NCBI RefSeq assembly: GCF_014250475.1
Contig: NZ_CP060204.1
Span: 2,121,001 to 2,185,000, forward strand
Reading direction: 5' to 3'
DNA: 64,000 nt
DNA from: Selenomonas timonae
Lineage (GTDB): Bacteria > Bacillota > Negativicutes > Selenomonadales > Selenomonadaceae
The position numbers were made by a program, and so were the translations under genes. This document shows, in pieces, positions 32,339 to 36,483 of the stretch; within the stretch, counting starts at the first letter, position 1; every line of letters starts with the position of its first letter. Under the pieces are notes generated by a model. That model saw only the letters and a list, made by a program, of their open reading frames with translations, was not told where the DNA came from and made no database searches.

Positions 32339-32375
32339 AGCAAAGAGGCACCGGTATAACCGGTGCCTCTTTGCT
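32339..32375 (+). terminator. Bidirectional terminator
   Basis: Seventeen-base arms AGCAAAGAGGCACCGGT (32339-32355) and ACCGGTGCCTCTTTGCT (32359-32375) pair perfectly around ATA. It lies between converging genes and overlaps the last codon of the ABC transporter. Confidence 0.88.
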
Positions 32376-34122
32376 ATGTTGCGTGCCATGCGCCTCCTGC
32401 CGTGAGCAGAAGTTTGCGCTCGTGGTAGGCACCCACACGACGCCTGTGTGCGATGCTGACAACAGCAGCGTCCGCACAATCCGTCCAGAGGAGCCGATAC
32501 ATGCGATCCTCGTTCTCCTCGTCAAGCGCCGAGGTCGCCTCATCGAGAAAGATCCATTTTGGCTTCAGCAACAGCGCCTTTGCAAATGCAAGTCTCTGCT
32601 GCTCGCCGAGCGAGAGTACCTGCGCCCAGTTCTCCTCCTGATCGAGACGCGGGATAAATGACGCCAAATTCGCCTTTTCGAGAGCAGTCTCAATCTCTGC
32701 CGTATGCGCCGCATCCTCCGCTGCGGGATAGAGAAGTGCCGCACGCAGCGTCCCCATTGGCAGATAGGATTTCTGCGGCAAGAAGAGCATCTCCGCTCCC
32801 TGCGGCATGGTAATGCTGCCAGATCCATACGGCCAGATTCCCGCAATCGCGCGCAGGAGAGTACTCTTGCCAATGCCCGAGGGTCCCTCGATGAAGAGGT
32901 GCTCCCCGCGCGTGAGATCAAAGGAAAGATCCTTTGTCAGCACGCGCCCATCCGGCTGACAGACGGTAAGCTCCTTGACCGAAAGGCTCTCTCCTGCCTC
33001 TGTGCGGCGCACATTGGAGGCAGACATCGTGCGCTCGACCTGCTCCATGTGATTGCGGAAGTCCGTAAGACGGTGCACGACCGTCTGAAACTGTGCAATC
33101 GACGCCTCCGTTGGCGAGTAGTAGCGCAGGACGAGGAAGGACAGAGAGTTGACGACCTGCTGAAATGCAACCGCCGTCTGCATCAGTCCGCCGAACTGCA
33201 TCTCCCCAGCGAAGATGCGCGGCACAGCAACCATATACGGAAAGAGGAAACCGATGCGCCAGTGCAGCTCCGTGACCCACGTGAGTTGTACGCGCCGCAG
33301 CATGAGGCTGAAAAAATTCCGCCGCACGTCATTGAATCGCCCAAGCGCCCCTGCGCTCTCGCGCTCCTCTCCGCCGTAGAACGCTATGCTCTCGAAATGC
33401 TCACGCAGACGTGCAAGCCCAAAGCGCAGATCTGCCTCATACTCCTGCTGGCGGTTACTCAGGCGCACGATTGGACGCCCCGCCCAGAGCGTTGCCCCTG
33501 TGCCAAGCAGCGCATAAAGAATCGCAAGCCACACCATATAGCCGGGCAGGGCAAAATTCTCGCCGAAAAGAGGAATATCCAGAATACCCGACAGTCCCCA
33601 AAGAACTGCCCCGAAGGACGAGATGCGCATTGCGGCATTGAAGATCCCGAGCGTCAAATTGAGAAAGTACGAGACGAAGAGACGCACGTCATCTGTAATG
33701 CGCTGGTCGGGGTTATCGACAGCGCTCTTTCCATCCACGCTGAGTTCCTCATCAATCTGCATGAGGTAGTATGTCCGCCCCGAAAGCCAGCGGCGGACGA
33801 AGTCATCAACGAGCCACGTGCGCCATTTGATCTCAAGGTATTGCATGAGATAGTTGCGCCCGACCTCCATCGCGATGAAGGCAACCATATACATCGGCCA
33901 GTATTTCAGATAGAAAAAGAAGCTGTCCGAATCCATCTCCTGAATGGTATCGTAGAACATCTTCTGCCATGCATTGTAGTCCACCATGACGGAAACATAG
34001 TACGCCTGCAGACCGAGAATCACGGCGGCGAGCAAGAACATCGTCCATCGCGTACGCATACGCCAAAAGCCGCGCATGAGACTCCATACATCGCGGAAAA
34101 AGGCGCGGTTATATCGTGTCAA
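32374..34122 (-). CDS. ABC transporter, fused permease/ATPase of the SbmA/BacA-YddA type
   Basis: This half-transporter probably acts as a homodimer. The N-terminal permease domain (residues about 1-330, ABC_membrane_2 type) opens FRDVWSLMRGFWRMRTRW and includes EIKWRTWLVDDFVRRWLSGRTYYLMQ. The C-terminal ATPase has Walker A GPSGIGKST near residue 415, signature LSLGEQQRLAFA and Walker B WIFLDEATSALD. At 582 aa it matches the YddA/Rv1819c architecture. Relatives import peptides, bleomycin or cobalamin. It follows a TonB-dependent receptor on the same strand, so it could carry that receptor's ligand, which is inference. A hairpin separates the two. Confidence 0.93.
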   Translation of the reverse strand: MTRYNRAFFRDVWSLMRGFWRMRTRWTMFLLAAVILGLQAYYVSVMVDYNAWQKMFYDTIQEMDSDSFFFYLKYWPMYMVAFIAMEVGRNYLMQYLEIKWRTWLVDDFVRRWLSGRTYYLMQIDEELSVDGKSAVDNPDQRITDDVRLFVSYFLNLTLGIFNAAMRISSFGAVLWGLSGILDIPLFGENFALPGYMVWLAILYALLGTGATLWAGRPIVRLSNRQQEYEADLRFGLARLREHFESIAFYGGEERESAGALGRFNDVRRNFFSLMLRRVQLTWVTELHWRIGFLFPYMVAVPRIFAGEMQFGGLMQTAVAFQQVVNSLSFLVLRYYSPTEASIAQFQTVVHRLTDFRNHMEQVERTMSASNVRRTEAGESLSVKELTVCQPDGRVLTKDLSFDLTRGEHLFIEGPSGIGKSTLLRAIAGIWPYGSGSITMPQGAEMLFLPQKSYLPMGTLRAALLYPAAEDAAHTAEIETALEKANLASFIPRLDQEENWAQVLSLGEQQRLAFAKALLLKPKWIFLDEATSALDEENEDRMYRLLWTDCADAAVVSIAHRRRVGAYHERKLLLTAGGAWHAT

Positions 34123-34203: not shown

Positions 34204-36390
34204 TTAGAAATCTGCCGTAACGGAGAGCATGAAGTTCCGGTGCTCGCCAAGATTGACGCGATAGCCGCCGCCCGTTGCCTGCCAATAACGACGATCGAGT
34301 ACGTTATTCACATCGAGCCGAACTGTAACAGGCATCGTTCCCATATGGAAGGAATAGCGCGTCCCCAGATCCATGCGGAACCACGGTGCTACGCGCAGCA
34401 CATTGTTCGGATCGTAATATGCCGATCCTGTGTAGAGGAATCGAGTGGAAACCGAAAGCCCGGGAACACCGTGCACATCCTGTTCCACACTCATAACAAA
34501 TTTCTTGTTTGCAACGCCTTCCAATGTATTACCGTTATAATTTTCCTGACCATAACGAGCGTCGATCCATGTCAGACCGCCAAGTACGCGCGTACCCGTG
34601 CGCGGCTCACCAAAGAACGAAATCTCAAGTCCACGGCTCGTATAGTCCACCTGACGCTGATAATATGTGCTCGAGGTAACATAGTCATCAATCGTAGTTG
34701 GCTTCTGCAGCTCATAGATGCTGAGAGCGGTTGCAAATTTTCCGAGGTCAAATTTGACGCCCGCCTCCGTGGACTTCGTCTTGATCGGCGCAAACACCTC
34801 ACCGGCATTGAGAGACCATCTGTCCGCCGTACCGCCCTCCTGCAGTCCCTGCATATAGGTCGCGTAGAGGGAGATCTTCGGCGTTGCCTTAAAGAGGATG
34901 GCATAGGCAGGACTCCAAGCCGCCTCATTGTAACTTGCTGACCGCAGCCCCGTGGTACGGCTGAAGCTCTCCGTCTTGATCTTCTGATAGCGCGCCCCGA
35001 GGATGAACTGCCACCGCTCATTTGGTACGGTGATGACATCGGTAATCGCAAGCCCCGAAAGGGTGGATTCTCCCGTCTTGGGCAGAGACAGCCCCGTATA
35101 GCCCTGTACGCCCTGCCATACAATATTATATAGATTTGTATTGTATGCATTGAGCGTCTTCGTATTCGTATACGCTGTCCAGTGCGTACGGTTATATGCA
35201 ACGGTCATCTCGTGTGCGAGATCGCCAGTTTGGAACTTTCCCTTCGTACCGATTTCCTGCGTATTCGCCCTGCTTTCTCTAGGGAACGCATAGTTAATGA
35301 CACGCGCCGTGCCATCGGTTCCCGTCAGGCGAAATACGTTGTAGGTATAATCCTGCTCACTGTGGCGCAGTCCTGCCGCCGCATATGCAGACCAGTTCTC
35401 ATCAAAATCATAGTCCGCACGCAGAAGGGCATAGCGCTCCTTGGCATCGAGGAAGGTGCCATCCTCTCCGAGATTCAATTTAGAAGAAGGTGACTTTGGA
35501 ATCGACCCGTACGCTGCGACCATAGCATTCGACATACGCAGAGAAGTTGTCTCGTTCTTGAACTCGCGATGCAGATACCCCGCATCGAGCGAGGCACGCC
35601 ACTTGTTCCTGCGCATATCGAGAGCGATCGCAGCGCCCGTTGTCTCCTGCTTCTCACGGTCGAATGTGGTCGATCCGTTGCGATGCGTAAGGTTGATGCG
35701 TACACCGTATTCCTTGTTCTTGCCGAAGCGCTCACCGACATCCACGCTCTGACCGAACTGGCTGCCGTTCCCATAGGAGAGCGTAAAGCGGCGGATCGGC
35801 TCATCCTTAGCGCGCTTCGGCACGAGATTGATCGATCCTCCAACACCACCGTTTGGCGCCATGCCGTAGAGGAGTGCACCTGGTCCCTTGAGGATATCGA
35901 CACGCTCCACTGCATTGAGGCTGTTCGTATAGTTTGGCGCGATATTGTATAGCCCGTTAAATGCAATGTCGCCACCCTGCAGCTCCATCCCACGCACTGT
36001 CCACATGTTACTTGCAGATGAACCCGAGGATTCCTGTACCGCAGGATCGTCAGCGATAAGATCCTGTATGGTCTGCGCCTGCCGATTCTGAATGTGCTCC
36101 TCCGTGAAGCTCAGCACATTGAACGGCGTCTCCATAAAGTCGCGCTCGCCGAGGACACCGAGCTGCGATTTGCGCGCAACCTGTCCGCCCGCATACGATT
36201 CCGTAACCGGCTCCGTGACCGGCTGCGTCTGCGGCTCCTCCGCGCGCTGACCGACGACCTCGACCTCGCCGAGATCATAGGTCTGAAAATCATCCGCATG
36301 CACCGCATCCGCTGCATATGCTGCTGTTGGCAGTATGACCGCGCTAGCAAGTGCAAGTGTCCCCCCCCCGAGGACAGACTTAAAGTTCAT
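34204..36390 (-). CDS. TonB-dependent siderophore receptor with G9 tract in signal-peptide codons
   Basis: This outer-membrane receptor is 728 aa. It has a signal peptide (MNFKSVLGGGTLALASAVIL, ending AAYAAD), a TonB-box-like VEVVGQR near residue 45, and a plug with LKGPGALLYGMAPNGGVGG. The 22-strand barrel ends HRNFMLSVTADF with the expected C-terminal Phe. I chose the ATG at 36390. A TTG two codons earlier has a better-spaced GAGG and may be used instead. Codons 8-10 are GGG GGG GGG, so slippage would shift the frame and switch the gene off. A consensus promoter inside a palindrome lies upstream. It is a paralogue of the receptor at the window start. Confidence 0.95.
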   Translation of the reverse strand: MNFKSVLGGGTLALASAVILPTAAYAADAVHADDFQTYDLGEVEVVGQRAEEPQTQPVTEPVTESYAGGQVARKSQLGVLGERDFMETPFNVLSFTEEHIQNRQAQTIQDLIADDPAVQESSGSSASNMWTVRGMELQGGDIAFNGLYNIAPNYTNSLNAVERVDILKGPGALLYGMAPNGGVGGSINLVPKRAKDEPIRRFTLSYGNGSQFGQSVDVGERFGKNKEYGVRINLTHRNGSTTFDREKQETTGAAIALDMRRNKWRASLDAGYLHREFKNETTSLRMSNAMVAAYGSIPKSPSSKLNLGEDGTFLDAKERYALLRADYDFDENWSAYAAAGLRHSEQDYTYNVFRLTGTDGTARVINYAFPRESRANTQEIGTKGKFQTGDLAHEMTVAYNRTHWTAYTNTKTLNAYNTNLYNIVWQGVQGYTGLSLPKTGESTLSGLAITDVITVPNERWQFILGARYQKIKTESFSRTTGLRSASYNEAAWSPAYAILFKATPKISLYATYMQGLQEGGTADRWSLNAGEVFAPIKTKSTEAGVKFDLGKFATALSIYELQKPTTIDDYVTSSTYYQRQVDYTSRGLEISFFGEPRTGTRVLGGLTWIDARYGQENYNGNTLEGVANKKFVMSVEQDVHGVPGLSVSTRFLYTGSAYYDPNNVLRVAPWFRMDLGTRYSFHMGTMPVTVRLDVNNVLDRRYWQATGGGYRVNLGEHRNFMLSVTADF
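36361..36369 (-). repeat. G9 homopolymer tract, possible phase-variation site
   Basis: Nine C residues on the plus strand give GGGGGGGGG at codons 8-10 of the receptor. Such tracts in receptor genes of Neisseria (for example hmbR) vary in length and switch expression. In this sequence the frame is open (on). Confidence 0.7.
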
Positions 36391-36454
36391 TCCCAATTGT
36401 TTCCTCGCTTTCCATAGCATACAATTATAACATCCCCCAATAGATGTGCCCAGA

Positions 36455-36483
36455 ATTATACAAAGAATGATATTCTTTGTCAA
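36455..36483 (-). promoter_or_regulatory. Consensus promoter of the second receptor gene, embedded in a palindrome
   Basis: On the minus strand TTGACA (36483-36478) and TATAAT (36460-36455) are 17 bases apart, and both match the consensus fully. Nine-base arms ACAAAGAAT and ATTCTTTGT (36460-36480, 3-base centre) fill the spacer and touch both hexamers. A bound repressor would block RNA polymerase. Fur is the natural candidate. Confidence 0.85.

Follow-up and report, generated by a model that had tools for sequence, protein, structure and literature searches.

The receptor gene and its G tract

When the gene for a surface receptor carries an uninterrupted run of nine G residues a few codons after its start, the question arises of whether the run is a chance meeting of glycine codons or a switch able to turn the gene on and off. 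Such a gene lies in the window (the whole stretch of DNA analysed, 64,000 nt of the Selenomonas timonae genome, contig NZ_CP060204.1, positions 2,121,001 to 2,185,000). The initial annotation had placed a G9 tract at codons 8-10 of a TonB-dependent receptor, and this was confirmed: a C9 run on the plus strand at 36361-36369, which is G9 on the coding (minus) strand, corresponds to codons 8-10 of MNFKSVLGGGTLALASAVILPTAAYAA, counted from the ATG at 36390. Read on the minus strand, the gene starts TTG-GGA-ATG-AAC-TTT-AAG-TCT-GTC-CTC-GGG-GGG-GGG-ACA. With its 9 residues close to the 5′ end of a reading frame, the tract has the length (9 or more) and the place expected of the poly-G/C run in a phase-variable gene. 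The features of the locus are as follows:

34204..36390, minus strand: TonB-dependent siderophore receptor, 728 aa from the ATG at 36390 (TIGR01783, Plug, beta-barrel)
36313..36390, minus strand: signal-peptide codons (MNFKSVLGGGTLALASAVILPTAAYA), judged by eye from the translation
36361..36369, minus strand: G9 tract at receptor codons 8-10, proposed slippage site; the S. infelix orthologue has G8 here
36394..36396, minus strand: TTG, alternative start, aligned by eye with the ATG of the S. infelix orthologue
36403..36406, minus strand: Shine-Dalgarno-like GAGG, identified by eye
36455..36483, minus strand: promoter TTGACA-17-TATAAT, 12/12 consensus matches, from a promoter pattern scan
36462..36478, minus strand: perfect 7-3-7 inverted repeat AAAGAAT-ATC-ATTCTTT in the promoter spacer, from an inverted-repeat scan
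32374..34122, minus strand: SbmA/BacA-like ABC transporter, next gene downstream (PF06472, PF05992, PF00005)

The receptor matched the TonB-dependent siderophore receptor profile TIGR01783 over its full length (profile positions 1-649 of 649) with 324.1 bits, the curated cut-off being 223.5. The Plug domain spans aa 86-183 and the beta-barrel aa 307-697. The solved structures scoring best against it were FemA, a ferric-mycobactin receptor (E 2.5e-133), and BauA (E 4.7e-106), to which it is related from about residue 60 to its end. The family profile thus classes the receptor as siderophore-type, and its predicted function is ferric siderophore transport. Gene order and strand suggest that it is possibly co-transcribed with the SbmA/BacA-like transporter gene.

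The GAGG motif lies 12 nt from the ATG at 36390 and 6 nt from the TTG at 36396. This shorter spacing, together with the alignment of the TTG with the S. infelix ATG, indicates that the TTG may be the true start. The two codons share a frame and both lie upstream of the tract, so the logic of a switch would be the same for either. A start located beyond the tract, an objection that the initial annotation had foreseen, was considered and found unlikely: in both species, by eye, the tract is followed in frame by no ATG, GTG or TTG until a GTG situated at the end of the signal peptide or further downstream. Upstream of the gene, the scan detected four promoter-like sites where shuffled sequences gave 2.0, the single full consensus match being that at 36455..36483. 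The inverted-repeat scan gave five matches with up to three mismatches (0.91 expected), and the only mismatch-free one was that at 36462..36478. This repeat is probably a repressor operator, which we infer to be Fur-like; it is a candidate for the operator motif by which genes of the genus respond to iron.

The length of the tract was not remarkable in itself. The window contains a single run of at least 8 G or C (two overlapping 8-mers, both inside the G9 tract), so that the coding regions elsewhere in the window hold no comparable run, as had been noted previously. Dinucleotide shuffles of the window nevertheless contained two or more such 8-mers in 43 of 100 cases. The whole genome has 18 G8 words, making up 10 distinct tracts, while about 59 words would be expected by scaling from the window shuffles, and GGG accounts for 28% of the Gly codons in 11 window genes. 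Shuffles, genome count and codon use therefore rule out length alone as the distinguishing property; the informative feature of the tract is its position. The same absence of excess, in window and genome, and the frequent use of GGG also speak for a chance origin, under which GGG codons fell side by side, Gly-Gly-Gly is tolerated in the signal peptide, the run is stable, and the shorter tract of S. infelix described below arose by sequencing error or by ordinary mutational inactivation. Four tracts of at least 9 exist in the S. timonae genome, and that of the window is the only one at a receptor start. The longest G tract of this genome is a G12 at G000:C1:1650362-1650373 (L204, L294), just 5′ of a start codon and near small secreted-protein-like genes and a transposase-like gene, as judged by eye.

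The S. infelix orthologue

A search of 189 genomes of the family, considering the best five or fewer candidates per genome, identified a close orthologue (E <= 1e-180) of the receptor gene in S. infelix only, that is, in two genomes including that of S. timonae. The S. infelix gene comes from strain ATCC 43532 (genome G005); it is a single assembly and hence a single observation. Its tract, located between the same flanks (GTCCTC and ACACT), is G8, so that the start codon and the remainder of the gene, which is intact, are in different frames: the reading from the ATG stops after 92 codons, while the downstream frame remains intact over about 715 codons. Alignment of 714 codons downstream of the tract showed 88% identity to the window gene, with a dN of 0.070 and a dS of 1.34 (dN/dS near 0.05). 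To judge by these values, the S. infelix gene, out of frame in the assembly, is not a long-dead pseudogene. Two expectations of the initial annotation, that tract length should vary and that off-frame alleles should keep an intact gene, thus hold at this locus for G9 versus G8 between two species (n=2) and for one off-frame allele from a draft assembly.

Since one close orthologue was found, the direct case consists of two alleles from two species. This small number, and the draft status of the S. infelix assembly (about 30 contigs), favour a chance run; as with other single off-frame cases, the G8 could be explained by homopolymer sequencing error. A G8-G9 tract is also short, so that switching would be slow.

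The tract is not a property of the receptor family at large, a possibility ruled out by a survey of homologues. The S. infelix gene apart, none of 60 homologues (L021-L080) had a run of 8 or more between 400 nt upstream and 200 nt downstream of the point where the match begins; the longest runs there were of 7 and occurred in two of them. In this respect the receptor differs from its other relatives.

Homopolymers can be slippery for the ribosome and for RNA polymerase. An off-frame allele might accordingly yield some in-frame product and be leaky rather than OFF, and its low dN/dS fits continued expression as well as it fits recent switching. Slippage of this kind can operate together with DNA slippage, and is very unlikely to be the explanation in its own right.

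Early G tracts in receptor and adhesin-type genes of the genus

Fourteen genomes of the genus were searched for G tracts of 9 or more, and the 76 distinct tracts that they contain were all tabulated together with flanking sequence of up to about 2 kb. Seventeen of these are no more than 107 nt from the putative start codon of a TonB receptor gene; in all 17 the G residues are on the coding strand and the receptor contains a Plug domain. The expected number of tracts in the first 210 nt of the 211 Plug genes of the 14 genomes is 0.05, assuming tracts to be spread evenly over both strands and with genome sizes rounded. On this expectation the Poisson P is about 2e-37, a value that treats as independent the orthologous tracts within families, which they are not; counting each of six families once (our own grouping, by sequence similarity), it is about 2e-11. 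Adhesin-type genes carry a further seven tracts in their 5′ portion, bringing the set to 24, and the remaining 52 of the 76 are within other genes, intergenic, or at places that were not assigned. Start codons were chosen from a Shine-Dalgarno-like motif plus a signal peptide, with TTG taken for L194. The threshold of 9 leaves out G8 cases (the S. infelix orthologue and, in S. timonae, L003 and L099). The autotransporter gene L142 was also omitted, its tract being upstream of the likely start. The set comprises:

Receptor family A: L136, L158, L180, L185, L194, L196; early G tract
Receptor family B: L143, L156, L159, L184; early G tract
Receptor family C: L155, L170; early G tract
Receptor family D: L134, L186; early G tract
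Receptor family E: L164, L200; early G tract
Sixth receptor family: the window gene alone; G9
L141, L145: autotransporter domain; poly-C tract
L163, L165: very long frame with signal peptide and, over its full length, no Pfam match; size and signal peptide are the sole grounds for the name adhesin-type
L167, L168: very long frame with signal peptide, no Pfam match in the parts scanned, the L167 frame exceeding the stretch examined; called adhesin-type on the same two grounds
L140: TPS-domain adhesin followed by a ShlB/FhaC-type partner, together forming the two-partner secretion locus L297:3481-10623 (G002:C1, from 654000); G11 near codon 151

The early tracts of the other receptor genes range from G9 to G13, some leaving the gene in frame and some not, which extends the length variation seen between S. 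timonae and S. infelix. The frame of the chosen start was compared with that of the downstream gene, the bases being left unaltered; this was computed for 23 of the 24 genes and established for L140 by inspection of the locus, where G11 splits the gene into frames of 167 and 1649 aa. Seven of the 24 were out of frame, namely the receptors L156, L184 and L196 and the adhesin-type genes L140, L145, L165 and L168; the off-frame S. infelix allele of the window gene is not included in this count. Each of the three receptors has at least 669 open codons downstream. In the single-contig genomes (G000, G002, G010 and G012), four of 11 genes were out of frame (L140, L145, L184 and L196).

Family B offers a second comparison between the same two species. 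The S. timonae receptor has G8 and is in frame; its S. infelix orthologue has G10 and is out of frame, the two being 96% identical over 1130 codons (dN 0.025, dS 0.25). Orthologues lacking the tract, or with an interrupted one, are common in families A, B and C. The N-terminus was in view in nine of ten family C alleles; all were in frame, with G13, G12, G8, G7 or no run of 6 or more. The S. timonae family A receptor L244 (G000:C1:2309403-2311412) has, by eye, no recognisable signal peptide at the start of its frame, its N-terminus having apparently been lost or rearranged.

These results count against a chance run in three ways: 17 of 76 tracts fall at receptor starts where 0.05 would be expected; off-frame alleles recur in families A and B and in adhesin-type genes, single-contig genomes included; and two off-frame S. 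infelix receptors, that of the window locus and that of family B, have kept a low dN/dS. A chance origin with a stable tract is therefore considered unlikely. Another possibility is that selection acts on the protein, a Gly-Gly-Gly motif being needed and the DNA run a by-product; Gly3 encoded without a G run of 6 or more in L242, L243, L260, L263 and L264 would agree with this. The context of the motif varies, however: by eye, it is placed early in the signal peptide of the window receptor, late in that of families A and E, and at the mature N-terminus in families B-D. In several family C members it is shortened or missing, the poly-C tracts of the two adhesin-type genes L141 and L145 encode proline, and out-of-frame alleles are not something that this explanation predicts. 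A need for the glycines is thus highly improbable as the cause of the run.

Other tracts of the genus occur in different settings. G9-G11 tracts were found in or near surface- or sugar-modification genes (methyltransferases, a glycosyltransferase, an ATP-grasp gene and an MBOAT acyltransferase; L139, L144, L195, L188 and L157), being internal in the methyltransferase gene L139 and the glycosyltransferase gene L195. At L177 (G008:C1:724177-724188), a G12 tract fills the spacer of a promoter-like TTGCCA-17-TATAAT site upstream of an AAA-type ATPase-like gene, both identified by eye; this pattern makes it a candidate for transcriptional phase variation.

A search for a Shine-Dalgarno motif followed by ATG and G9, with the reversed pattern as control, was run over the 189 family genomes, the genus included. 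It produced matches in 53 of them, 99 in total (overlaps counted separately) versus 35 for the control. No enrichment was found in the 14 genomes of the genus (three matches versus five), a count that says little because the gap allowed by the pattern is too short for most of the 24 genes. Among 20 pattern sites inspected, five (L310, L311, L313, L314 and L320) precede long frames with signal-peptide-like starts: in other genera of the family, G9-G11 tracts lie just before long, secreted, adhesin-like frames, that of L310 being TPS-like by eye. Reading from the ATG in the pattern does not continue into the long frame at any of these five sites, so that either the gene is OFF or it starts later. 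The other 15 sites were short, incomplete or of other types, with L312 flagellin-like by eye. The tracts before these five frames raise the possibility of comparable switches elsewhere in the family.

The proposed switch and its counterparts

The position of the tract, its different length in S. infelix and the recurrence of such tracts in the genus make it likely that the G9 run is a contingency switch, producing slipped-strand translational phase variation of the receptor. Slipped-strand mispairing in the run during replication would add or remove a G. At a frame-breaking length, translation from the upstream start would end early and no receptor would be made, and a later slip would restore the frame and the receptor with it. 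The gene would be ON (in frame) in the S. timonae genome and OFF (out of frame) in the S. infelix assembly. The consensus promoter and operator-like repeat suggest that ordinary regulation, probably by iron, would be layered over the random switch. Switching may be of benefit by letting cells evade phage, bacteriocins or antibodies that act through the receptor. The comparative evidence therefore supports the phase-variable iron receptor put forward in the initial annotation; since the comparison is between species, variation within a population is what we infer from it.

Poly-G tracts are also found in the signal-peptide codons of Neisseria pilC. The window gene resembles pilC in the location of its tract, within signal-peptide codons of a gene for a surface protein, and differs in encoding another protein in another phylum. 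For Neisseria meningitidis HmbR and HpuA, one study (PMC3786947) describes poly-G in the reading frame and a tract length that predicts the ON or OFF state. The window gene is likewise part of an iron receptor system with poly-G inside the reading frame; unlike HmbR/HpuA, it belongs to the Negativicutes, has its tract in signal-peptide codons and encodes a siderophore-type rather than a haemoglobin receptor, and is a candidate for switching. A study of the Neisseria phasome applied a tract cut-off of 9 (PMC5953494), which the G9 tract reaches. As there, a set of surface genes with poly-G/C tracts emerges here; it differs in consisting of candidate switches, derived from 14 genome sequences of a genus with the same cut-off and another procedure.

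Phase variation is among the topics of a survey that covered frame transitions in 1106 complete prokaryotic genomes (PMC3711429); Selenomonas, Veillonella, Negativicutes and TonB are not named in its main text as far as this was available. The terms ‘phase vari’, ‘frameshift’, ‘poly-G’, ‘homopolymer’ and ‘slippage’ were not found in the accessible part of a Veillonella outer-membrane proteome study (PMC5491611). Among the matches listed in a search of open-licence papers, slippage phase variation in Selenomonas or other Negativicutes was not found, which is weak evidence because the search was confined to such papers. The mechanism is classical, being that of Neisseria hmbR/hpuA, and the lineage would be a new one for it.

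The locus would belong to a group of switches that the genus carries as poly-G (or poly-C) runs early in its TonB receptor and adhesin-type genes. It seems reasonably probable that the oral diderm Firmicutes of the Selenomonas group have a Neisseria-like poly-G contingency set of their own. This would comprise at least six TonB receptor families, autotransporter and two-partner adhesins with 5′ slippage tracts, and methyltransferase and glycosyltransferase genes with internal tracts; which receptors and adhesins are displayed would vary at random from cell to cell, and other genera of the family would have tracts of a similar kind. The annotation of draft genomes may label such receptors as pseudogenes, and tract lengths in existing sequencing reads provide material for a direct test of switching. 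If the proposal is correct, slippage switching of iron receptors takes place in an oral diderm Firmicute lineage far from Neisseria, Haemophilus and Campylobacter, and would account for differences between Selenomonas strains or cells in iron uptake, adhesion, and sensitivity to phage or bacteriocins.
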